Below are positions 3,801 to 60,254 of a DNA stretch of 64,000 bases, in pieces (the first letter of the stretch is position 1; each line of letters starts with the position of its first letter). The position numbers and the translations under genes were made by a program. The DNA comes from Russula earlei (taxonomy: Eukaryota; Basidiomycota; Agaricomycetes; Russulales; Russulaceae): NCBI GenBank assembly GCA_025769875.1, contig JAGFNK010000012.1, positions 236,224 through 300,223 on the forward strand, in the 5' to 3' direction. The notes below the pieces were generated by a model. It was not told where the DNA came from and ran no database searches. It was given only the letters and a program-made list of their open reading frames with translations.

Positions 3801-5060
3801 TCATGAACCATCACAAACAAGAGAATCACTTTCGCTTACAGCTCCAGCCTCTTGTTACCAACATAGTCCCGATCGTCCACCATCTTTTCGTCGTTCATGG
3901 CCATCAGGACGCGTCGCGTCATGGTTGCAACGAAGATCGCCTTCGATCTGAAGTCCATCCCTGCGACTGGTACGTGGGCGAGAACGATAGTTGCTAAAGC
4001 CTCAAGAGCTTCCTCCCAAGCGGGTCGGCGTGGGCCAACTACACGGCGGTTTACCTTTACACGTGTACCGATCCAGTCAAGGGCTTGATGGCGTGTAAAA
4101 ACTCCCAATCGTGCTGCATCTTCCAGATTTGGCGCAAAAGCGTTAACGTACGCCTCTGAATCGCCTGCGGTGAGAAGAAGGATCTCCTTATCCGATTGTA
4201 TGCCAAGAGCCTTGAGCGCAACGGCGATGGGGACATCTTCGTGTATTGAGTTATGCCGAAGGTAAATCTTTCCTTTCTTGGTTGTGATATAAGTCTTGGA
4301 TTTGAGACCGCCGTGAGTGGAACTTTTCACGCATCAACAAAGGAAGCAAGCGCAGGATGGGTTAAGTAACATACGAAGTACAAGAAGCTTGAACCACGCC
4401 CTTGACGGTATCGGTCTCAACGATGATGCGATTCTTGCTCAGCTGTTCCTGAACGAGGATGACCTTCTCCGTGCCTTTGACGACGAAATACCCACCAGGG
4501 TCAAGCGGGCATTCGCTCATATGAGCCAGCTGAGATTCGGTGCGACCTGTGAGGACACACTTGTTGCTCCGAAGCATGATAGGAAGGCGACCGATGTTCA
4601 CGTTCGACCTCCGAACGACGTTTTTACCCCGGGTGTACTGTATCGTAACAAGAATAGGTGCGCTATATGTGGTGTCGCGTAAACGGCACTCATGCGGCGT
4701 AACGCTTTTGTCGATCGCGTCCGCGTCCGTGCGATCGGGAAATCCAACATGAATGTCCGTGTACTTCAACCAGAACCGGGGATCCACGTCAGATGTAACC
4801 TTGTTATTCGCTCTTAAGATGTTCTTGATGTCCACATCGACAAAGTAATTGAAAGAATCGATATGTTGTTTGACCAGACCTTTGACCTTTAAAAATGCTG
4901 GGAGCAACAGCCATTTGTCCTAAGACCTCTAAACGCCAGCGCACAAAGCAGTTTATGGATCACCCACCTCGACCTTCTTTATAGGATCGGTGATGCCCAG
5001 GCCGTGCCACTCCACCTTGTTCGAATCCCCCCAACTTTCATCTCCTGCATGTCCTTCCAT
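846..5060 (-). CDS. RPC2: DNA-directed RNA polymerase III second-largest subunit (RPC2/Ret1)
   Basis: This is the beta-like catalytic subunit of RNA polymerase III, which transcribes tRNA, 5S rRNA and other small RNAs in the nucleus. Pol III rather than Pol II identity comes from the N-terminal run [20 protein letters not shown], the [13 protein letters not shown] segment and the C-terminal zinc site [17 protein letters not shown]. Other hallmarks are [22 protein letters not shown] and the [10 protein letters not shown] tail. I traced 15 exons (minus strand): 5060-4968, 4919-4375, 4322-3840, 3790-3289, 3244-2984, 2934-2494, 2442-2363, 2308-1896, 1843-1770, 1716-1663, 1594-1469, 1402-1396 (7 nt), 1340-1304, 1250-976 and 893-846, ending DDA-stop. 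The start is the first ATG before [17 protein letters not shown]. Every junction keeps frame except one extra A at 1206/1207 (plus strand), which breaks frame inside the RQPTEGRSR[DE]GGLRLGE motif. The gene is either sequencing-damaged or newly broken. Confidence 0.95.
1396..1402 (-). other. RPC2: 7-nt micro-exon of RPC2
   Basis: The conserved stretch [21 protein letters not shown] can only be assembled if AAACTGA (read on the minus strand) is spliced between a 66-nt intron (1403-1468, GTGAGC...TAG) and a 55-nt intron (1341-1395, GTATGT...CAAG). It supplies Lys, Leu and the first base of the next Lys. Both introns have consensus ends. Confidence 0.85.
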
Positions 5061-6118
5061 ATTTTCTGCCTCCAGACCATACGGCAGACTAGTTTCTGGG
5101 CTGTAACGAGAAGGATGTCGATGTCGCTCAGTGACTGAGTGGATGGATGTCCCGGTCACGTGTCTGACTCGCTTCACGCACGTCTCAAACTGACTCGGAG
5201 ATGTACGTTTACCAAGTCGATAATGGCACCTTCACCGACAGAAAGCAATTTTCGCAGCAGCCTTTCTCAATTTCGTTGGGCGAGAGGAGTCACGGATGAC
5301 TCGCAAGATCCGGGTGCTGGGACCTCTCGTAATCCTTTCTCTCGATTCTACAATGCAGTCGGAGGAGCGTATATCCCGTTGCGGTCCAACGAAAATTCCA
5401 ACGAAGAGGAGGCATACTTTGCTCTTTCCCGTTGGGAAAGGTGGATTCCATGTCATCTTCCGCTCCTCTCGCCTTACGAACGTCTTGTAGATTGCTGGGC
5501 TTTTTAGCTTGCCTTGCAGGTGCAGCCGTTTGCTTTGGGGTTGCTTTCTTCACACTTCCACTGCTCGCTATTCGTCCTGCAAAGTTTGCCCTCTCCTTCA
5601 GGTATTCGCAAGATGCTTCCGTGTGTTTCACTGCTCACGTTCCCCATTAGCCTTGGTAGCTTGTTAGTTATGTTTGGGTAAGGGTTAAGCTCGATCGAAC
5701 GATGCCGACGGAGGACTGAGCTAATTCAATAGTTTCTCCGTCCTGATCGGCCCCATCAATCACATGAGACACCTCGTGTCAAAAGAACGCTTGCCGTTCT
5801 CCGTTGCCTACATGTCTAGTCTAGGGTTGACGTTATATTTTGCATTGGGGGTACGCCACTGCTCGACCGCCCTCCCGCAATGACGTTAACAGGTGTTGCG
5901 CAGCCACAGTCTTATTTCGGGTCCTTGATAGGTGCAGTGGTCCAGGTCATTGCTCTTCTTTCATATATCCTTGCGTATTTTCCTGGAGGCACACAAACAT
6001 TACGGTTTGGGAGTCAGATGGCACTTCGCAGCGTTGGGACCCTACTTCCCTTCTAACCCAATTAATTATAAACTCGCGTACATATCCTATCTCTTTTCTT
6101 GTACTTGTAGCGATTATA
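5061..6118. other. Intergenic region with an uncertain minus-strand open frame
   Basis: This lies between the RPC2 start and the NUP192 stop. A minus-strand frame (about 5290-5631) encodes a lysine/alanine-rich stretch, KKATPKQTAAPARQAKKP, then PSNLQDVRKARGAEDD. An adjacent frame continues basic (5232-5456). They could be exons of a small basic protein, but I recognise no family and could not prove splice joins. The first bases next to 5060 should hold the RPC2 promoter. Confidence 0.3.
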
Positions 6119-9100
6119 TTATACGGTGATACCATCCACTTCCTCGTCCTCCACCTGCAAGCCAACGGTTTCCCAAATTCGTCTTGACATGACCTTGATA
6201 TATGCCTGACTTTCCCGCCATTTATGATCCTGTTCAGAAGTGAGATGGGTTGTTTCAGTTAAGTTGGTTGGAGACTTACAAGGCTGAGCAGGAGCAGATG
6301 ATTGAGGGCAGGTGAAAGTCGTTTCGCAGCGTCTTCGCGAAAGACAGCGCTCTCGTTAGGCTGTGGCACGGATCTAAGGACCGCTGCCGTCGATACTTTT
6401 ATATTTGGGTTGTTGACATGCCGTGACGCGCAAAAGCATGCAATGTGTCGCCAAAGGAGCAACAATACCATTTCAAGTGACGCTATAAAGAAGCTCATGA
6501 TCCAGTTATCCCCAAGACGGAAAGACAGCGGCCTCACACATAAGGTTATTCGCCATATTTTGTGCGCGTACGAGGGCATGCTCGAGTTTGTAACTCATTA
6601 AACCACGCTTTTGTCCGATGTCAAGATCGCCCAGAGTATCGATGTCTAAGGTGACAATCTGTAATCGGGATCAGGAATGCTTTTCAATTCAATGGGAGAG
6701 GTATAATGTGACTTACCTGCTGGATATCATTGACTTGGACATGGGCCTTAGACTCTAGTGCCGCACTGATAGCAGTAATTTCTTTCAGCGTCTCCATCAG
6801 CTCGTCGCAAAGGTTAGTTAGCGCCTCGATTGCATCACCAACTGTGGGAACGATGGCTACGAGGAATGCCATAAGACAGCAAATAACGTAACTATCATCG
6901 CAAATAACATACCGATGAAGCGAACTGCCCTGTCCTCATGTCGTGGAATTGTGATTATAGGCGACAAGACAATCGTAATGTCTGGCTCTATGTTCTTGAC
7001 GTAAGCAAGCGTCCGTCAGAGATGCGGGAAATGACGCGCCCGTAAATTCACTCGCAGCTCCCAGGTACCCGATGAGCGCCTTGCGAAGCGACTGCTCCTT
7101 TCGTTGAGGGATCAAATCGAACCTGCAGGCACCGCCACCTAGCCCACATCAGGACTGGATTAGTCTAGTCCAAGTAATGGCCTCGAATACTCAAACCTGG
7201 TATCCTGCAGTTTGTATCCAACCCCTCGGACTCCGTCTGTGGACGAACCTTGTGTGACGACTGATTCATTCCTATGCGTCGCGCTGCCAAACTCAAAATT
7301 GCGGCGTGGATGCCTCCGTACCCGCCACTCCCAGAAGCCTGGGAACGATGTAAGCACAACGACTCATAAGAGATGGATTGACTGACAAGCTCGGACTTGG
7401 GAACAGAAGGGAATATCACCGAACATAGATAAACGAGAAGGTGGATTTCGTCAAGTACAGAAAGAAAATACTCATCCCCATCATTTCTAAGTATCATGAC
7501 AATCGTGTCACGGTGGCTAGAGAGAAATTCCAGAGCCTGAATGATGTCAACTTATCAGTCTGAGGAAGAAAATACACTGTACTGCACCTGATTAACTGCG
7601 AACGAATGTCCTGAGCCCAAGGTTGCCAGAATTGTATCGATGAGTTGTACAGCTGGCATGAACAGTTGGTGATAACGCTGGATGGCGGAGGGTAGGAAAT
7701 GGTGGTGATCTGACAAACCAGTCAATAAGTTAGAGAGCAGAAGACGGGTTGGCACACCAATAAATGACTGATCGGCTTCAGGCAGAGTGTCCAGGAAATC
7801 ACAGTCCGCCAAGATAGGAATTACTCTAGCCTGTATCAATCGCTCGGCTCCTTGGCGTGTTTGGCCAATGCGAATAAGAAGGGACATCTTTGCCTCGTAA
7901 ACATACAGGGAGTTGAGATCATCTGAATAACGATCAGTCATCAGCCACGAGCGATAGAATGGAATTTTGATGTACGATGTTTACCTGGCTCTGGTTTGAG
8001 AACGGACTGCAGTCTACGGTCAGAGTCTTTGATGTCCCGAACAAAAACGCCGAGAAAACCGTGCTGAACGAGGGTCGAAAGAACATTGCACTGCTTGTCA
8101 TCTCGCGATAGATGGACAAGGCAATCTAGGAGCATGTAGGCCACGGTCTTCCACACCTCCGTCCCGTCCGATGCATCACGAGAGACAGTGGTTACCAATC
8201 TCTCTGCTACTGGCCTGAGGACTGCCAGGTACCCACTTGAGTTTGCGCTTGCTGACCCGTCAGGTCGGGATGGTGACCGCCAGCTCTTCCCGTGCCGCAG
8301 ACGAGAGTGAGAGTGTCATGATGGCGGACGGTTCACTTCCCCCGGACAGTGTTGTCAAGGTCTTCTACCACGAGGTGGAAATAATTGACGAGCGCTGCAT
8401 AAAGATTTCCGCGAACGAGTTCTATTCGGTATTCCAAGACACATTCCAGGAAGCTTCGCAACAACCCATGTAATCGCTCGGAAGACAGAGAACATGAGTG
8501 CGAATACGACCCTAGAAGTTGTTGATCACGCCAGTCCTCCCGCAGCTTCGTTATGAGCGACAAAGACACCTCGGAGAGTAGCACTGCAGTAGGTTCAGCT
8601 ACTGTGCCTGAGCGGATGATAGGGGGCAGCTCTTGTAGTAAGTCGAATAGCATTGCCTCCCGTCGGTCCCGGGGCAAGCGGGTGGAACACTTAACTAGTG
8701 TCATGTCCACTAACCTTCTCCACGATTCGAAGCTAGTCGTAGTGGCGAATAATATCTCCCGTTGATGGTTCTCCGTCGCACAACTTTCCAGGACATATGC
8801 AGTTTCAGCATTGAGGCGCTCGAGATCAATAGGGGTGACGATTTGGCCCTGGATGTGAAGAACGTGCCTTGTCCGGCTAAGCAGGGACAGGACGGCTGCC
8901 TGATCGACAACTTCACACCCTTTATCATCGAGGAGCACGCATGCGGCAAAATTTAGATTGCCAAGTAGTTGCATTTGGACGGGTTCGACAGTAAGTGTGT
9001 CAACCCAGTCGAAACAGAGGGACTGCAGATATTCAATGATGCGGAGGTTTGGCTGCCCCACGGCACGAATGCTTTGGAAAGGTTCATCCTCCCAGTCCGC

Positions 9101-41066: not shown

Positions 41067-41397
41067 TGTTGAATCGTGCAGTGATAAGGTAGATTAGATC
41101 ATAATAGATCTAATAAAAACTTATTCAGTTTCTGTGAGACAAAACTGAAGTATCTACTGTATGTACGACACTCTTAAGTATCTGAGAGCATCCCTAATTA
41201 TTTTATCTGTAGTAACTATCAAATTATTTTCACGATCGCTATGTGCTAGCTACCGATTGTCTTAGATCACACTATCAATTTTTGCTATTGTATGCATTGC
41301 AGCAACTGAGCTGAAATGCTTATGTGGTCTGGGCCTGTGGGCCGCCTGGACAGTTTGGGCCAACGTGTCAATGCTTCAGCTACTCTTTATCTCAACA
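41067..41397 (-). repeat. Copia-2 3' LTR (331 bp, intact)
   Basis: The intact copy is used as reference to show where the DNA transposon cut the other LTR: its CTCTTAAGTATC is interrupted there as CTCTTA/TAAGTATC. Confidence 0.88.
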
Positions 41398-45705: not shown

Positions 45706-45919
45706 TGTTGAATCGTGCAGTGATAAGGTAGATTAGATTGTAATAGATCTAATAAAAACTTATTCAGTTTCTGTGAGACGAAACTTTTGTGTCATATTTA
45801 CCTAATAAAAACTTACTACAATGCGTAATCAGCTACTGATAAGATCGTGAGATAGTAAGCACTTACTTCAGTTTCTGTGAGATGAAACTGAAGTATCTAC
45901 TGTATGTACGACGCTCTTA

Positions 45920-46639
45920 CTGTCGTTTTCACGTGACCTTGCACTTGCCATTTTTGGATGTCATTTCAAGTGCGAAATTAAAACTGCTATATCTCAACAG
46001 TTTCTCAACAGATTGCCTTGAAATTTTGCCAGTAGAACCTTATATACTATATCTAGGTGCAGCGAAAATATGGGAGTCTAATATTCAGTTCTTGAGATGT
46101 TGATTTTCAGGTGCTGACATGAGTGCAAAACTTTGAACTGCCATATCTCAACTGTTTCTCAACAGATTTACTTGAAACTTCGACAGTGGGATCTCATGTC
46201 CTGTATCTAGGTGCAGCCCAAGAGTTGGGGCATAATTATCAGTTCTTGAAGTTTCGATTTTTGGGTGCAATCTGAGTGTGAAATCTTGAACTGCCATATC
46301 TCAACCGTTTCTCAATAGATTGCCTTGAAACCTGGAAAGTAGAACCTTATATACCAGTATCTAGGTGCAACTAAAATATGGGAGCCTAATATTCAGTTCT
46401 TGAAGTTTCGAATTTTGGGTGCCGATCTGCATGCGAAATTTCGAACAGCCATATCTCAACTATTTCTCAATGGATTGCCTTGAAACTTGGACATCAGAAC
46501 CTCATGTACTGTATCTAGAGGCAGCCAAATATATTGGGTTTCATTTCACATTGTGGGGTGCCGACCCCAAGCATGATAAGATTACATTTGCTCTACAGCT
46601 AAAAACATGACATGATACAACTATTTACAACTGTAGCGA
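45920..46639 (+). repeat. Left terminal inverted repeat (720 bp) with about 154-bp tandem units
   Basis: This is the reverse complement of 50956-51674. Inside it the motif CTGCCATATCTCAAC recurs at about 45984, 46138, 46291 and 46446, a period of 153-155 bp. Each unit also carries TTTCTCAA-AGATTGCCTTGAAA, then TATATAC/TGTAC and TATCTAGGTGCAGC. Units have diverged from each other more than the left TIR has from the right TIR. Confidence 0.93.
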
Positions 46640-47629
46640 CGCGAGAAGGGCACGCTTGAGGTGTTCATGGGAGGTAGCGATTGCGATCGCGTGCTGAATG
46701 TGCGAGGAGCGGCACGTAAGGAAAGTTGGGCTTAAGGCACGAGGATATGACGAAGCGGAAGTGGGAGCCTGTTGGGAGATGTGGATCTGGGAAGGTGCGG
46801 AAGCGGATGGGAGAGGGTGGGTAAGGCAGGATGGTCTTGTTCATATGCACCAAGATGTCTGAACAAGCCATCAGGAGCAGGTCCACCATGCAATTGGAGA
46901 GCTGTGGGGGACATATACGCACATTCATATTTATTGGAGGGCCAGAGCTTGGTCAGCTTGTCCACTCAGGTTGCAGATGAAGAGTTGGGCCATCCGTCCA
47001 TGACTCGGCGGAAGCAGCAGTGGCGGGACGTCAAAGGAGGAGGCAAGGGTGATCAAGATGCGAGATGCGAGATGCGAGAAGAACGCATCTGTGAGCGAAG
47101 TATGGCATCGTTGAAATGAGTGGGGAAAGTGCCCATGGCTTCGTGCTTGAGGCGAGGTCATGTTCCAAAGTCTGGGTCAACTGAAGCTGAGGGACATCAT
47201 GTTCAGTCGCATTGGTACCAGAGAGAGGATATCAGACGACGACTTTGACTGGCGTCTGGATAAACTGCCCCAACGCACGTAAAGATGATGTCAGGTGGCA
47301 GAATTGATGAGCGGAGCAAAGACAAAGTCTGCAGCGAACAAGACCAGGAGGTATTGATAGACAAGGTGATGATTGACATGTGCAGGAAGAGAGAACAACA
47401 GTTCCCATAGCACGTCTTTGTTTTGTTTGTCTGTGGGGGCAGTCAGGACAGAGTGAGGCGATAGACAAAGACAAAGGCAAGGAGCAAGGCTTGCCTTGTT
47501 TCGAGCCGCAGGTGTGGTCGACTCGCCTTCCTTGGCATCCATCGGAGGGGGAGGTGGTGATGGTTTGGAAAGTCGAGGTGCAAGAGAAACGGTCAGGTGT
47601 AAGCGAAATAGAGACTTGGAAGCAAGTAT
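46640..47629. other. Unidentified interior of the long-TIR element, left part
   Basis: GC-richer and CG-rich DNA between the left TIR and the transposase 3' end. Open frames on both strands (for example 46732-46965 minus and 47232-47639 minus) show no family I recognise. By analogy with the synthetase fragment this could be more captured host sequence. Confidence 0.35.
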
Positions 47630-48884
47630 CTACACCCACGGAATGGGGCCTAAAGCGTGTTCATGGGTCAGAAAGCAGCCGAGAGAGAAAAAAAAAAAGG
47701 ACCGACCACACGAAGAAAAAGATATGAAAATAGAGGAGGACGGTCGGAGACTGCGGAGAGGGGAGACAGGGGAAGGGAAGAAACTTGGGGCAGCGACGCC
47801 GCTCGGTACTCGCCATGCTGTGTCATGTGAGAACAGGTACTTCATTGCAGAAAATGCCAGCTCAATTGGGTTATAATCAGGGGAATAAGGCGGCAGAAAT
47901 TTGACACGCATGCCCCTAAATATGAACAGGAGTGTCAACACTTGTCAATAGATGTGAATAGAATTTACCAAGATTCAATAAGCTCTATAATGGCAGGGTC
48001 CTTGTGAATTCGACAATTGTCCATAACAATGACTGAATTGGGGGCCGGAAATGGCTGCATATGATCCAAGAGGCGATTGATGAATGTGGAGAAAAGCTCA
48101 GTGTCGAAAGAGCCTTCAACGATGTCACAGTGTATAATACCATCGTTGAGAGATAAGGCAGGAAGGACAGAATATCTGGGACATGAAAATCATGAGTTAC
48201 ATGGCATTATGGATGGCATGTCACTCACCGTTGTCCTCGACAGAAAAATGCCTTGCGTGTGGCTTTCCTGCCACGAATAGCCCAAGCTCGTCCATGGTAT
48301 GTTGTTCAGCGATCAACAGAACTCTCATCCACAAAGATAATCTGATTTGGATGATAGGTTCCGATACGTGCAGCAAATGCAGCTCGCTTTTCTTCACAAT
48401 GCTCAAGTGCAGTGCGTGAGAGCTATCCATCGTGTATCAGAAGCTTGAAATGTACATAAGAAAAAGTGCGTACCTTCTTCAAGCTATAGCCAGCCTTGAC
48501 AAGTGTCCTCCATATCGTTGACAGTGATACCGACACCCCACATGTCTGTAACAGTTCCAAATGCAACTCATCGAGATAGGTATCTGGCGCACTATTCAGA
48601 GTTCTGAGCAGGTGCTGTATGGGTCCAATTTCAATAAAAGTGCCTGCTAGTACAGATTTTGTGCCACATACCTCGACATCATAGTCACAAAGTGACTGAT
48701 GGAGTTGAGGTTTTGAGTGGTGGGGAAGTTCGACCCCACCAGTGCGCTTGAAGTTGGCGATGATCCCTTTCACTTTTCGCACACTTACATCTGTATACAT
48801 GGAGATATCCTCCGCCGACATGTTTGTACTGAGACGAATGATGATCCATTGCACTTCTTCTGAGATTGCTTTGCCTTGAGCCAT
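47630..48884 (-). pseudogene. DD34E Tc1/mariner (IS630-like) transposase, nearly intact
   Basis: The start MAQGKAISEEVQWIIIRLS is followed by a helix-turn-helix region (MYTDVSVRKVKGIIANFKRT, then GVSVSLSTIWRTLVKAGYSL). After three ordinary introns (ends near 48430, 48235 and 47965) the catalytic core reads IIFVDESSVDR, SVIVMDNCRIHKDPAII and FLPPYSPDYNPIELAFSAMK. The three acidic residues are present, with 34 residues between the second Asp and the Glu, hence DD34E. One in-frame TGA at 48306-48308 follows VDR at a position where Arg is expected (CGA to TGA). Apart from that the frame is open. The protein would cut and paste the flanking TIRs. The end of the frame beyond AFSAMK is uncertain (the stop used is at 47630). 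Confidence 0.88.
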
Positions 48885-49625
48885 GGCGGTGATGGGTGTG
48901 TTGAAAGTTTTCCCTCTTTGGGTACGCTGTGACCAAAATGGACATCTCTATCTCCGACCTTTCAGTGCTGTCTCACTCAGCCTTGTCCATCGTCCATCCA
49001 CCATCAACCCTGCATCTGTCACACCTGCTGTATCCTTATCGTCAGCCGCTCCATTCTTTGCCTTGCCAAGTCGTCGCCATCACGTCCCCAGTTCTGCCCA
49101 CTGCCGCCTCTTGTCCATCAGCACCTGCTTCGTCCGCTGAGTCTTCATATTGCCTGCCGCCGTCATTTCAGCATCGCCGGCTGTCTACGTCACCAACACT
49201 ATCCCTGTCTCTAGTTGTTTCAATTCTGTCGGCCATTCTGTTGGCCACATGTGCTGCCTTGCTGGCCTTATCTGCCCCAGTTGTCTCAATCCCAGTTGCC
49301 GCAGTCTCAGTCTCCTCCTTGTCTCCTCTAGACGCCGTTACTTCAGTTCAACCAGCCCCTACAAAGTCAGCTTCTTCCACAGCTTCAGTCTTGCTCACAG
49401 CCGTTACCTCCGCTGCCACCATTTTGGTCTCAACCCTGTCCGTTGTTTTAGTCTCATGCAACACATGTTGTCCAAGAAGGCCCCAGACCTGAGCTCAGTC
49501 ACTCGCCACCTCAGGAGGAGCACAAACTGCCTCCACACCACCAGTGCCTGAGACGCTGCTGACACAAGTAATACGCCCCACGCCACCCCTCATGTCGCCT
49601 CATCCCCGTGGGTTTGAATGTGTCA
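48885..49625. other. Interior of the long-TIR element upstream of the transposase
   Basis: This probably holds the transposase promoter. A Ser/Ala/Val/Leu-rich plus-strand frame (48929-49492) has repetitive composition and no recognised family. Confidence 0.35.
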
Positions 49626-50249
49626 TACAACTGTGTTGACCATTAGGCATTCAAACATCCCAACAAGGTCCATACCACCATAGATTATGATTGATCAGAG
49701 CCATTTCTGGGTATCTCCATGTTGGATGGCTCATCTATCCCAGACCGCTATCATTTACGAAGCCAATGAGCCCAACAAAGGTCAAGAGGTCCCTATGCTG
49801 AATTGCCACATGACATTTCTAGTGTTGCCAATGTACTGAAATCTCTTGGCATCAAGAAAGGTGATTCTGTCTCTATCTACCTTCCTCTGGCATGGCAAGC
49901 GGTCGCTGCCCTCCTCGTGTGTGCGTGCATTGGTGCCGTAAGGACGACGCGGCTCTGGCAGTTGTTGATACAGTCACGATTCGCCCCTGCAGAGAAGCCA
50001 GAAAACACGACAGAGTGGATGGCCGAACAAGGGCGTTGTGGTGGGAAGACTATCGCAACCAAAGCAGTCGATTCGGCACTGAAGGGCTGCCCGCATGTTG
50101 AGCATGTCCTTGTTCTTAGGCACACGGGGAACGAAGTTCCGTGGATGCAGGGCCGTGACAAGTGGTGGCACGAGGAGCTGATGCGAGTCCTCAATCACTG
50201 CGCACCAGAGATCTTGTCAGCGAAGATCCACTCTTTATTCTTTATGTGA
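49626..50249 (+). pseudogene. Captured acetyl-CoA synthetase fragment with an internal inversion
   Basis: Pieces read YNCVD-AFKHPNKV (49626-), TAIIYEANEP (about 49745), ISSVANVLKSLGIKKGDSVS and IYLPLAWQAVAALLVCACIG (49812-49937), then GGKTIATKAVDSALKGCPHV and EHVLVLRHTGNEVPW (50041-50150), then EDPLFILYV (about 50225). All belong to the N-terminal half of acetyl-CoA synthetase (acetate + CoA + ATP to acetyl-CoA), ending just before the TSGSTGKPKG AMP-binding loop. The segment 49938-50024 fits only on the minus strand, where it encodes HSVVFSGFSAGANRDC and INNCQSRVVLT, exactly the missing piece. It has therefore been inverted in place. A stop replaces Trp in YNCVDRW, and frameshifts occur. Non-functional. 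Confidence 0.88.
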
Positions 50250-50955
50250 GATGCCTGCTTGCACATGCCCATCGGCAAGCATCTGAACTCGCTGCAGAGG
50301 AGGGAACCCATGACATGCAAGTTCCATGTCTTGCTCAAGACCACACACATATGATAGTATGATGCACTGTGTGGGAGAACAAAATGAAAGGTAGACAGGA
50401 ATGACGAAGGTATGTCTCCCTGAATCCCATCCTTCCTCCAGACCCCTCTGCTCCTTCACACGTGTCCAGCTGCCGACAGGTCGAGACTTGTACGCCACCG
50501 CTTGTGGTCCCGTCGTCCCTCAATAGAGAATGTGACAGACAGCTGGCCGCAGTCAGACCAGAAGGGAATAATGATTTCCACCTTCAGAGTCATATAATTG
50601 AATGCCCAGGTGAAAGGGGCAAGCTTTCATATCCAAGGGTCAACAACAATGTCCTGATATCAGGTATGTATGACGCACCACATATGACAGAGCTGTCCTG
50701 ATCCCTCTAATGATAAATGAGCGCATTTTTCTGTGGGTCGGGTAGGCGATGAAGGTAGTGCACATGCGAATGCTGCGTCACGCACGACAAACGCCGAAAG
50801 GTGCCCGAGCATCACACTGTCGCTCACCGCGTCACTCCGGCCTACCGGGCCATCCCGCCATTGTTCGCCATTGTTCACCGCCGCTGTATGCGAGGGCTCG
50901 CAGCCCACTATTTGCCCATTCATGCGCAATTGCAATCGCTGCCTCGATGCACGCC
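50250..50955. other. Unidentified interior of the long-TIR element, right part
   Basis: This lies between the synthetase fragment and the right TIR. Frames at 50462-50701 and 50749-50970 have no recognisable family. It has the same CG-rich composition as the left interior. Confidence 0.35.
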
Positions 50956-51674
50956 TCGCTACAGTTGTAAATAGTTGTATCATGTCATGTTTTCAGCTGT
51001 AGAGCAAATGTAATCTTATCATGCTTGGGGTCGGCACCCCACAATGTGAAATGAAACCCAATATATTTGGCTGCCTCTAGATACAGTACATGAGGTTCTG
51101 ATGTCCAAGTTTCAAGGCAATCCATTGAGAAATAGTTGAGATATGGCTGTTCAAAATTTCGCATGCAGATCGGCACCCAAAATTCGAAACTTCAAGAACT
51201 GAATATTAGGCTCCCATATTTTAGTTGCACCTAGATATGGTATATAAGGTTCTACTTTCCAGGTTTCAAGGCAATCTATTGAGAAATGGTTGAGATATGG
51301 CAGTTCAAAATTTCACACTCAGATTGCACCCAAAAATTGAAACTTCAAGAACTGATAATTATGCCCCAACTCTTGGGCTGCACCTAGATACAGGACATGA
51401 GATCCCACTGTCGAAGTTTCAAGTAAATCTGTTGAGAAACAGTTGAGATATGGCAGTTCAAAGTTTTGCACTCATGTCAGCACCTGAAAATCAACATCTC
51501 AAGAACTGAATATTAGACTCCCATATTTTTGCTGCACCTAGATATAGTATATAAGGTTCTACTGGCAAAATTTCAAGGCAATCTGTTGAGAAACTGTTGA
51601 GATATAGCAGTTTTAATTTCGCACTTGAAATGACATCCAAAAATGGCAAGTGCAAGGTCACGTGAAAATGACAG
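50956..51674 (-). repeat. Right terminal inverted repeat (719 bp)
   Basis: Reverse complement of 45920-46639, with only scattered mismatches visible (for example GTATCTAGGTGCAAC-units agree base for base). It ends GGTCACGTGAAAATGACAG followed by the duplicated TA. Confidence 0.93.
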
Positions 51675-51903
51675 TAAGTATCTGAGAGCATCCCTAATTA
51701 TTTTATCTGTAGTAACTATCAAATTGTTTTCATGATCGCTATGTGCTAGCTACCGATTGTCTTAGATCACACTATCAATTTTTGCTATCGTACACGTTGC
51801 AGCACCTGAGCTGAAATGCTTATGTGGTCCGGGCCTGTGGGCCACCTGGACAGTTTGGGCCGACACATCAACACTTTGGCTACTCTTTATCTCAACAATA
51901 GAT

Positions 51904-56493: not shown

Positions 56494-57011
56494 TAAGTCA
56501 AGTGTACTCATCTTTGCACCAAGTAGGAGCAAAATTTGGATCCCAACTTATGCAGAAGTAGTCACAGGGAGGAACCTGTGTCGATCAGGAACTTCTCCAA
56601 GACTTTATATCCTGGAAAAGAAGGATATAGAACATAGCCAAATCCATTGGTATTTTTGCCAAGAACAAGCTTGTCGGTATCACAATTGAAAGCTAGGCAA
56701 AACTGGAGTTAGAATTGATCAACACTCCATTCAAGACAGGAAGTAACGGAAAAAGATATGCAAGGTTTTCTGGATGAACTAAAGACCTTCAAAACTTTTC
56801 CTTGACTGGTGTAGGAGCATGGTGACATCCTACCACAAAACCAGAGGGTGGATGTTTTGACATACAATTCAACAACAAAGCCCGACCTGCAGAATAATTA
56901 ACAATCAGTGGTATTTCATTGATTGGGACAAAGATGGGTTCTATGTACTCAAAGACAATTTCATTGCCAATCCAGAGGAGTTTGGTTTAAGAACCAAAGC
57001 AAAGCCTTATA
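56494..57011 (+). other. Internal remnant of an unidentified retroelement
   Basis: Plus-strand frames with several stops contain fragments such as INTPFKTGSNGKRYARFSG and GGCFDIQFNNKARPAE. They look like decayed protein, possibly gag, following the candidate LTR, but I cannot name the family. Confidence 0.35.
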
Positions 57012-57780
57012 CAGTGACCCAAAAAAACCGTTCAAATGTTTTGTACATTTTCATTGTATTAACCATATCTAGAGAACCACTGCAGCTGATAACATGTTAG
57101 TGGGCTTGTTTTAAAGCTCTACATCATAGCTTTGTAATGAAATACTATATATACTATGAACATAATTATGTAAGAAGATATAAGGTATTTCTTCCAGTGT
57201 ATCCATTTGAACAGTTTTTTTGCCTTGGTATCTAAATAGGGTATATGCCAAAACTTAGTAGTTTATGTATCCTCCATTTGCTTTGAAAACCTCTTCCACC
57301 CTCCTAGGCATACTTTCTATCAAATTCTGCACCACATTACAGCTGTGTGCACTCCCAAAGTTCATTGATTCCCTTAGGGGGTGTTGGATAAGCTGCAAGC
57401 TTCTTTTTGAGATGAGCCCAAAGATACTCAATAGGATTGAGGTCTGGGGATTGAGCTGGCCAGTCCATGACCTGAATTCTTTGGTCTTGGAACCAAGATG
57501 TGGCAAGCCTGCTCTTGTGGATAGAGGCATTGTCCTGTTGAAAGAGGGTATCTTTGCATTTCTTCTTGAAATACTTGATAGATGCAAGTAGTTCATCCTC
57601 TAAAATGCTGCAATAAAGTTCAGCATCCATCCTTCCATCAATCTTTGCTGCATGCCCAACTCCTTCCCAGGGTGCCATGAGGCCGGAAGCTGGGAGCCCA
57701 CTGCCATTGTCGTCCTTGTCTGACGAGTCTGCGCTCATTGTAGTTGATATGGGAAGGGCCTCTTTAGAAGGGCACACTTG
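57012..57780 (-). mobile_element. Truncated Tc1-type transposon
   Basis: The left end is TA followed by CAGTGACCCAAAAAAACCG, a typical Tc1-like terminus. The short inverted words CCGTTCAAATG (57028) and CATTTGAACAG (57206) lie subterminally. The transposase on the minus strand stops abruptly near 57780 and no second end is seen, so the 5' half is lost. Confidence 0.75.
57255..57777 (-). pseudogene. Tc1-type transposase C-terminal fragment
   Basis: The frame contains LFQQDNASIHKSRLATSWFQ and WPAQSPDLNPIEYLWAHLKK, the second Asp and final Glu region of Tc1-like DDE transposases, followed by a short C-terminal tail. The N-terminal DNA-binding part and first Asp are missing or unrecognisable. 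It is a different lineage from the long-TIR element's transposase. Confidence 0.82.
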
Positions 57781-58819
57781 GGTTCATGGAGCTGGACAAG
57801 GACTGACCTTGCTCGACTCAGGGACACCAGGGCATGAAGGAATCAAGCGGGGGTGAGAGGGGGGGTTCTGTATCCAAGTTATCAGTGGATGCTTTGCCTT
57901 GAGGTCAAGGTCGGGAGGTGGCATGATGACGCGCTCTCGCGTCCAGCGCTGGGACCACCAGTGGCAACAAGCATGGAGCTGCAGCAACTGCTTGTGGGAT
58001 CAACAGGAGAATGATTTATAACTCAAGTCAGCGTGGTTCACAGCTGTCAGGGAGGGATGGTGAGGATGCACACGTATGATTTGGTGTATGTTTGCCACGT
58101 TCCTTGGCTTGAAATCTCCGCGGAGGCTCAGGCGAGGTGACACGCTCATTTGGGTGCCTATGGGCAATATTGGAAGGCTCCACAACCTTGTGAGAGTGCG
58201 AGCAGAAGAGGTGCAAGCAGAAGATGGTGGCGAGGGGGATGATCGTAGTATGGAGGAAGGCCCATGACTGGGGATGAACAAGTTACCTGTGAGATTCATT
58301 AACTCAGTAGCGATCGCTAGCGCATGCTCTGTCAGAGGATCTAGAGTGGAACCTGTCCATGTTGCGAGCAATATTGTTACTGCAAGTAACACATGGCATC
58401 TATTAGACCCTCCACATAGAGGCAAAGACAAGAGATGTAGTTGCCTACTTCAAGACAAACTGACTGACGAAGTTCGCTGGGCTGATCGGCAATACTCCCT
58501 TCTTTATTTGGTGATACATTGATCAAGGTAAGATGTGGGTTTCATAATAAAAGACAGAGGAGTATCCTTGGATGGCCTTGAGGGAAAGTAGCTGCATGGC
58601 ATTTTGTTGATGCTGTTGCCTGCAGAGGAAACATCATCTGCATGGCACCATTGTTGACCAGCAAGTCAATTCATGCATTCGAAATCATGACAAAGAGCTG
58701 GTTACCCATCCAAATAGAGAAGAGTGGCCCATATATCCTTGACCAGGCTCGTAGAGTGTGCTCAGGATAAGAGTGAAGGAAGTAGTAACGAAGGAGTGGG
58801 CCGGGAGGGATCATATGGA
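57781..58819. other. Unassigned DNA between Tc1 remnant and TIR relic
   Basis: CG-containing sequence with a minus-strand frame (58000-58431) of mixed composition and no known family. It may be interior of a second, decayed long-TIR element whose TIR relic follows. Confidence 0.3.
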
Positions 58820-59187
58820 TATGGCAGGTCCGAAATTTTGCATGCAGATCGGCACTCAAAAATCGAAATTTCAGGAACTGAACATTAGGCTCCCATATTT
58901 TAGCTGCACCTAGACACAGTATATAAGGTTCTACTGTCCAAGTTTCAAGGCAATCTACTGAGAAACGGTTGAGATATGGCAGTTTGAAATTTTGCACTCA
59001 GATCACACCCAAAAATTGAAACTTCAAGAACTAAGAATTAGACCCCAACTCTTGGGCTGCACCTAGATACAGTACATGAGATCCCATTGTCGAAGTTTCA
59101 AGTCAATCGATTGAGAAACAGTTGAGATATGGCAGTTCAAAGTTTTGCACCCATGTCTGCACCTGAAAATCGACATTTCAAGAACTG
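58820..59187 (-). repeat. Relic of the long-TIR element's terminal repeat
   Basis: About 370 bases closely resemble the right TIR (51150-51510) in the same orientation, covering about 2.3 of the 154-bp units (GTTGAGATATGGCAGTT..., TATCTAGGTGCAGC reverse words). It diverges at several positions and breaks off before the outermost terminus. It shows that the family has more than one member here. Confidence 0.85.
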
Positions 59188-60254
59188 ACACAACGGACAG
59201 GAATGGATAAGTCCAGTCCACTAAAACTCAACTCAGTGGTCAATAAAGGTGAAATATATTGACCACTGAATTGACTCAGCTCAGATTACAAATTATTTTA
59301 AAACAATTGATTGATTTGTTGCCCTCTCCTCATGCATCGCATTATTGTAAATATGTCAACCCAAACAATTAGAACTTAGTCAAATGCTTAAGAGAGGGCA
59401 GCTCAGTGCCCAAGTTATGTAACCTAAGATGCAACATGAGTCGCCCCGAATCACCAGGGGGATCATATACACTTAATTTGCCCGATCAATTTAGCCTTAG
59501 CAGACTTGGATAAACTTAACACAATGGCGTATGTTAATACATGGATTTATATTGAATAAATCGAGACATAAAGTGCATCCACAAATATGACACCAAATTT
59601 TAAATAGGAACAGTCTACTCATTACATGGCGATAATCGGCCGATGGGGATCAATCGCACCCGATGGGGATCAATCGCCTCGATGACAGAGACTGACCACA
59701 CAGATTAAACTCAACGCGAAGATCTGGGCTTTACATTTTGTTACAATTTTACTCGAGCCAAATAATATAGTTAGCATTCTTATAATTGAATCTTGTTTGT
59801 ATTTTCCCACTAAGAACCAAGTCTGTGTTGAAGGCAGCGGGCGGCGGCTTGCTGAGTTCGCGAAAACACACACAAAAGAAGGGACAAAACAGGTCTCTTG
59901 TTCCAAGGCGTAACTAGAGTTTCTACATATGAGACGCGATCTATGAGAGAGGGGGATATTGGGGGATTGGGGAGACAGAAAGATGCGAGTTGGGAGTGCG
60001 ATACATGGATGTGGAACAAGACGAGCCAGAGCGATGAGCTGCGATGAAAGAGGGTCAAGAGCTGGCTGGGCAGCGGAGGTGGAACCAGTATGCGATGAAA
60101 GAGAGTCGAGAGCAATGACGCAGGGCTGGAATGGGATGCCGCCTTACAGCGGGACACTGTGTGACGACGTACTAAAGAATTACCTTGGACATGGAAAGCT
60201 TTGCGAGACAGCCGACGAGCTATACCTGGAAAGTGAAGATCCTTTTGGTGGATA
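59188..60254. other. TE-block right border; palindrome and GATGGGGATCAAT repeats
   Basis: This contains a 16-bp near-perfect palindrome (59230-59245 with 59257-59272, core TCAGTGGTCAATA). A tandem CGATGGGGATCAATCGC unit lies at about 59642-59683, with a matching copy at about 62830. Open frames at 59670-60157 are low-complexity and not convincing. The 3' flank of the FunK1 gene is at the right end. Confidence 0.45.

Follow-up and report, generated by a model that had tools for sequence, protein, structure and literature searches.

How a transposon comes to hold a piece of one of its host's own genes, and whether such an element moves by means of its own transposase, are the questions raised by an insertion in the genome of the mushroom Russula earlei (GenBank assembly GCA_025769875.1). 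The insertion occupies positions 45920-51674 (5755 nt) of a 64,000-nt stretch of contig JAGFNK010000012.1 (forward-strand positions 236,224 to 300,223; hereafter, the window) and consists of two long terminal inverted repeats (TIRs), a DD34E transposase gene, a fragment of the host acetyl-CoA synthetase gene, and intervening sequences. A first-pass annotation, made from the letters of the window, had described it as a long-TIR DD34E element of the Tc1/mariner type that had captured part of a host gene, and this identification is supported by the analysis presented here. With a probability of roughly 0.85, the element is a non-autonomous, gene-carrying (Pack-type) DD34E member of the Tc1/mariner superfamily, descended from one ancestral capture of host DNA and belonging to a class of copies (class A) that was most likely moved in trans.

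The insertion, its target site and its family

The limits of the element were fixed to the base. Its left TIR (45920-46643, 724 nt, plus strand) and right TIR (50952-51674, 723 nt, minus strand) are identical at 715 of 724 aligned columns (98.8%); an extra 4 nt per arm (CTTA/TAAG), seen in one TIR alignment, are target context and lie outside the TIRs. Each arm is abutted by a TA target duplication (45918-45919, inside a TTAA target, and 51675-51676), and the sequence beyond belongs to a Copia-type retroelement with copia gag, an integrase core, and then RVT_2 on the minus strand. One long terminal repeat (LTR) of this retroelement lies at 41067-41397, and the right LTR is found in two pieces, at 45706-45919 and 51675-51897. 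Once joined, the flanks of the element align without interruption to the other LTR (window 41111-41364) at 93.3% identity over 255 nt, providing an empty site that reads CTCTTAAGTATC where the filled site reads CTCTTA, the element, and TAAGTATC. Given the unbroken other LTR and the TA at both ends, a single insertion therefore interrupted the right LTR and duplicated the TA of a TTAA target. The exact delimitation, the TIRs of about 720 bp, the duplicated TA, and the split of the right Copia LTR had all been proposed in the first-pass annotation, and all were borne out. There is next to no chance that the arms stem from separate insertions, or that misassembly created the element, in view of the lone TA pair, the lone empty site, and locus L009, another complete copy whose parts are arranged as in the window copy and whose flanks differ, notwithstanding the TIRs of different sub-types in five sister copies and the duplication of a nearby stretch on contig C1334.

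A TA duplication is the canonical reading expected for Tc1/mariner; insertion at TT^AA without duplication, by an element with the termini A...T, gives the same letters. An assignment to piggyBac, as suggested by TTAA, was ruled out, since the element is preceded by TTA and followed by TAA, with TA alone doubled, and its transposase is of the DDE_3 type.

The genome searched comprises 66.6 Mb in 1374 contigs, and no more than 40 candidates were scored in each DNA search, such that copy numbers are lower bounds. The exact tip of the element, CTGTCRTTTTCACGTGACC, has 146 occurrences genome-wide (0 for the control, the pattern read backwards), every one of them preceded by TA (102 + 44). TTA precedes 141 of the 146, indicating that insertion is almost confined to TTAA, a narrower choice than the TA alone that would be expected of Tc1/mariner. 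Tips with two or fewer mismatches number 67 in the window and the 40 loci retrieved, and they form 62 distinct flank groups. Several members have 58-nt flanks in common (L017, L037, and L038; L034, L035, and L042), and some copies were therefore duplicated with their surroundings or lie at the same site of another repeat.

Each TIR contains a tandem array of four diverged units, each roughly 154 nt long and 72-80% similar to a reference unit, which are putative transposase-binding units; those of the left arm span 45950-46560 on the plus strand, with starts at 45950, 46104, 46257, and 46412. Long termini of inverted and direct repeats, with internal repeats, are a feature of Tc1-like DD34E transposons of the Tc3, Minos, and Sleeping Beauty type, and the element resembles these in its DDE_3-type core, 34-residue spacing, TA duplication, and long TIRs with internal repeats. 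It differs from them in its four ~154-nt units per 724-nt TIR, its strong preference for TTAA, and a transposase that bears introns and is defective in all 19 copies read. Tandem long TIRs are also known in Mutator-like elements, according to passages of one report (PMC3310237).

Forty loci were read, half of them picked for paired tips and half for a transposase or cargo match, a choice that makes the proportions of the classes unrepresentative. Fourteen of the 40 (L009 and L029-L041) are of class A, to which the window copy belongs, several with nested insertions or broken ends. Class B1 (13 loci) measures about 3.87 kb when uninterrupted and has an interior formed by a ~1.0-kb inverted repeat around a ~400-nt core; class B2 (six loci) measures about 3.6-3.7 kb uninterrupted, and its interior differs from that of B1. 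Both of these interiors are non-coding. The three loci of class A2 (L043, L044, and L048, the first and last incomplete) hold a cargo and a transposase that both belong to a second lineage, the three of class C (L045-L047) are palindromes with cargo in each arm, and L042 is an A-C chimera. Related TIRs delimit classes A, B1, B2, and C alike; the many copies with TA flanks and different interiors, for which the first-pass annotation had advised a search, were thus found.

The captured acetyl-CoA synthetase fragment

The cargo of the window copy (49615-50298, plus strand) is a decayed genomic piece, about 690 nt in length, of the host acetyl-CoA synthetase gene. It was recognised as an AMP-binding (acetyl-CoA synthetase) fragment on the strand opposite to the minus-strand transposase, in agreement with the orientation first proposed. 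In the search for a donor with profile TIGR02188 (best 9 of 135 candidates, 13 rows), contig C133 was the sole place matched over most of the family length, with six exon-like rows and no stops. Stops occur in six of the other seven rows; the remaining one is a 333-nt fragment from contig C220, where a transposase copy is also found. The closest relatives of the partly stitched host enzyme, among the matches listed, come from Russula and other Russulaceae, the best being that of Russula dissimulans (87%); the 120 proteins listed include no acetyl-CoA synthetase of Russula earlei with an identity close to 100%. Relative to the C133 gene, the window cargo is 80.5% identical over 699 columns, and the class C pieces are up to 84.8% identical. 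A host gene fragment with an identifiable donor (C133) thus lies between the TIRs, as in Pack-type elements.

Eleven copies of the cargo were aligned with the host gene: those of the window, L009, L033, L042, and L048, the left and right copies of L044 and L045, the left copy of L046, and the right copy of L047. Both host introns are present in these element-borne copies, and all 11 have the same 3' breakpoint, at the same base past the second intron. In the window copy, the cargo-host alignment places the first retained intron at 49668-49743 and the second at 50246-50297, both on the plus strand, with the breakpoint one base later (50298/50299). Because both introns are kept, capture occurred at the DNA level, and capture of a spliced mRNA copy is ruled out. 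The single breakpoint in 11 of 11 copies therefore speaks for one ancestral capture as opposed to serial gene hunting, and repeated capture of acetyl-CoA synthetase is likewise ruled out.

For the family at large, the first-pass annotation's term "gene-capturing" stands insofar as one host capture has been traced, and falls short in that this was a single event common to all aligned copies, the donors of the B1 and B2 interiors not having been found. It is conceivable, if less likely than not, that different copies took up host DNA in separate, repeated events, in the manner of active Pack-type elements, given that three unrelated interiors lie under related TIRs whose mean identity between classes is 88-91%. 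The common breakpoint of the acetyl-CoA synthetase copies argues against this, as does the lack of a recognisable host donor for the B1 and B2 interiors in a donor search that was not exhaustive: genome searches with them gave repeated copies and no recognisable donor among the best 40 of 421 and the best 40 of 705 candidates, five frames were without a Pfam match over a cut-off, and a protein search with one 129-aa B2 frame matched two hypothetical proteins of Russula earlei and gave one weak match.

After capture, the cargo diverged in two ways. An 89-nt internal inversion (49935-50023, minus strand) is found in three of three class A rows and in none of the eight other element rows, and it is absent from the host; in its place, the eight other rows have an 11-nt deletion. 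None of the 11 rows keeps the host reading frame, which is broken by a 1-nt gap and the inversion in the three class A copies and by the 11-nt deletion in the remaining eight, and it is thus very unlikely that the cargo has been retained for its usefulness, whether in encoding a protein or in supplying RNA directed against the host gene. That idea draws on the palindromic copies, which hold the gene piece in both arms, and on the exact occurrence of 81 of 672 host-segment 21-mers in L045-L047 (26 of 672 in the window element).

The cargo, complete or in part, was found at no fewer than 29 class A-like and at least 8 class C-like places (best 40 of 125 candidates) with distinct flanks, and the cargo appears to have been multiplied by transposition. 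Two further places in this search matched only MID2, the segment between the cargo and the right TIR (50299-50951). On its other side, the cargo is separated from the 5' end of the transposase by a spacer, ACSr (48961-49614), that is partly conserved in classes A2 and C.

Gene carriage by the Tc1/mariner superfamily is not new. The view that capture is unusual for Tc1/mariner accordingly holds only in part, since rice Pack-Mariners (PMC8903248) and a fungal Tc1/Mariner transduplication (PMC3538342) have been published. The former, as the available passages describe them, are mariner-type plant elements with TA duplications and host gene fragments aboard, having 15-nt TIRs and lengths of a few hundred bp in the examples given, as compared with elements of 3.6-6 kb, TIRs of ~0.5-0.73 kb, and transposase remnants (in class A) in the present family. 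The latter concerns an ascomycete, Pyrenophora tritici-repentis, in which a Tc1/Mariner element with 46 family members bears an extra open reading frame between its TIRs and a hAT element bears a histone H3-like gene; palindromic derivatives do not appear in the passages available from that report. Capture of TET/JBP by other fungal transposons has also been described, in a paper whose main text leaves mariner unmentioned (PMC12730594). Neither this element family nor any multi-kilobase Tc1/mariner palindrome carrying a host gene was found in the open-licence literature searched, with wording that was partly blind to the spelling "Tc1/mariner"; the absence of the family from the published record is therefore weakly supported.

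A defective transposase

The transposase gene (47835-48884, minus strand) is composed of five exons (48884-48672, 48614-48474, 48422-48229, 48175-47969, and 47915 to a junction at ~47835) and four short introns of 51-57 nt. Its product matches the DDE_3 domain (E 3.4e-26) and the HTH_33 winged helix (E 1.4e-7), and the second D and the E are spaced by 34 residues, as counted on the spliced translation. Protein relatives number 434 at E<=1e-3, and the three best-scoring full-length ones are 59-61% identical; among the 120 matches listed, several are named as Tc1-like transposase DDE domain, and the named ones are nearly all from Agaricomycetes. The DD34E transposase with introns that had been proposed is thus present in its domain, spacing, and gene structure; it is not intact, having an in-frame TGA at codon 157 (48306-48308, minus strand) and lacking some 47 residues at its C-terminus.

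The missing end is replaced by MID1 (46644-47834), a class-A-specific segment, one frame of which was scanned with no Pfam match over the cut-off (best E 0.028). After the residues MKY, the window frame enters this unrelated sequence at the MID1 junction, where L048 and five relatives go on for ~47 residues to a GWYRHCGYV-type end. When the genome was searched with the intact transposase end (40 scored of 55 candidates), 24 places were found to stop at the very junction of the window copy, 10 carry at least 201 of the 221 nt, three break elsewhere, and three are distant. In-frame stops occur in all 19 transposase copies read, and 14 of the 19 have frameshift runs relative to the window copy. 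Some of the stops recur at CpG sites (codon 157 is CGA, TGA, or CAA among the copies) and may therefore be later decay. The truncation, common to many copies, is a stronger sign than the stops that class A spread in trans.

It is hardly credible, in light of the in-frame TGA, the missing C-terminus, the stops in every transposase copy read, and the same truncation at 24 of 40 scored places, that the window copy encodes a working transposase and is a recently active, autonomous transposon that captures genes. Such a reading could appeal to the 98.8% identity of the TIRs, the presence of the DDE triad with its 34-residue spacing, and the close similarity of L009, which differs at just 33 of 5718 sites outside CpG transitions; the identity of TIRs is, as described below, an unsafe clock in this element family.

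The preferred history, that of a single capture followed by movement in trans, would begin with an ancestral element that took up ~690 bp of the host acetyl-CoA synthetase gene as DNA. Its descendants would have split into a lineage with the 89-bp cargo inversion (class A, including the window copy) and one with the 11-bp deletion (A2 and C). Copies of class A have unrelated sequence in place of the end of their transposase gene and, with this gene truncated, most likely depended for their movement on a transposase provided in trans. This trans-acting DD34E transposase would recognise the shared long, internally repeated TIRs and insert the DNA between them at TTAA, with duplication of TA. Several points weigh against such a history. 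Neither an intact autonomous copy nor the trans source was found among the 19 transposase copies read, and because part of the stops may be later CpG decay, stops by themselves are no proof of trans-mobilisation. The single capture is argued from the common breakpoint and the flanking spacer, with no outgroup element that has the transposase but no cargo, and movement is deduced from sequence comparison.

Inverted arms, TIR exchange and age

Several derivatives hold the captured piece within very long inverted repeats. The inverted arms of L045 and L047 extend over 2782 nt at 95.7% and 2957 nt at 98.9% identity, respectively; the right arm of L046 breaks off, and 1571 nt align at 95.4%. In L044, the transposase lies between two cargo arms (1945 nt at 94.1%), the left of which is cut by the fetched stretch. 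Inverted repeats filling most of the element, a foldback-like feature, are seen in classes B1 and C and not in the window copy.

The TIRs themselves also vary within single elements. Left-right identity ranges from 0.869 to 1.000 among the 25 elements with both ends long enough, and five class A copies (L033, L036, L037, L038, and L040) reach only 0.869-0.889. In a FastTree tree, read without support values, the MID2-side TIR of these five groups with class C and the MID1-side TIR does not. The two TIRs of the window copy (0.988) are of one sub-type, as are those of L009 (0.992). Given unlike sub-types within single copies, TIR identity therefore reflects exchange besides age and is no simple clock; this common measure of age can mislead, and recent activity, as originally proposed from the near-identity of the window TIRs, is an unsafe conclusion when five sister elements have TIRs only 87-89% alike.

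A fairly recent spread of the window copy and L009 is plausible nonetheless, because the two are very close outside CpG decay. They are 97.4% identical, with 147 differences over 5718 sites, of which 140 are transitions and 114 are CpG transitions. The CG-rich interior that had been noted as a further sign of youth did not hold up and is ruled out in that role: GC content is 0.48 for both the element and the window, and the observed/expected CpG ratio of the element (0.63) is below that of the window (0.68). The corresponding ratio for the host acetyl-CoA synthetase gene is 1.17, which, together with the CpG-transition bias between copies, may be taken as a sign of methylation-linked decay of repeats.

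The palindromic derivatives may have arisen by the copying of one arm onto the other, which would have placed the captured piece within their long inverted repeats. By analogy with Pack-TIRs and Galileo, repair after excision with template switching could underlie the uptake of host DNA, the copying of arms (B1, C, and A2), and the exchange of TIRs. In the FoSTeST model for animal Pack-TIRs, gene pieces are acquired through template switching during gap filling or at stalled forks (PMC8277862); that study concerns animals, and its main text leaves Tc1 and mariner unmentioned. Galileo, a member of the P superfamily in Drosophila, is described in the passages available as having long, variable TIRs that recruit internal sequence, with no functional copies there and target duplications of 7 or 8 bp (PMC4168063); here, the element is of the Tc1/mariner superfamily, and a captured piece of a host gene is among the sequences recruited.

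It is tempting, if speculative, to suggest that this Tc1/mariner lineage habitually turns its interior into its own ends, with captured DNA copied from arm to arm, a host piece placed in mobile arms of ~3 kb, TIR sub-types swapped, and giant hairpins as a possible source of double-stranded RNA with a match to the acetyl-CoA synthetase gene of the host. Transcription of the palindromes, should it occur, would provide a natural setting in which to test the action of transposon-made hairpin RNA on a host gene. More broadly, the family is a mushroom example of a single capture, its donor gene still in the genome, whose later history of inversion, deletion, copied arms, and exchanged TIRs can be traced, and the order of the steps that build Pack-type and foldback-type elements thereby becomes testable within one genome.

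Additional repeats were observed in and around members of the family. A 1.25-kb repeat (95.7% alike) is nested at differing positions in L017 (714-1959) and L026 (3563-4820), and its end pieces also occur in L024. The TIR family of the element is represented in the window a second time, by a truncated class B2 copy (57665-59188) that is 94.9% identical to L012 and has lost its terminal 165 nt. Abutting it at 57665 is a fragment of a different, abundant Tc1-like element (~57008-57669; DDE_3, E 1.5e-12), which was ruled out as the parent of B2: the fragment is present at 91-96% identity without the B2 part at 38 of 40 scored places (414 candidates), the exceptions being the window and contig C1334. 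The latter contains, at 4453-6353, a second copy of the 56.9-58.8 kb stretch of the window, with 100% identity over 56900-57800 and the same B2 match, and is perhaps a haplotype or assembly duplicate.

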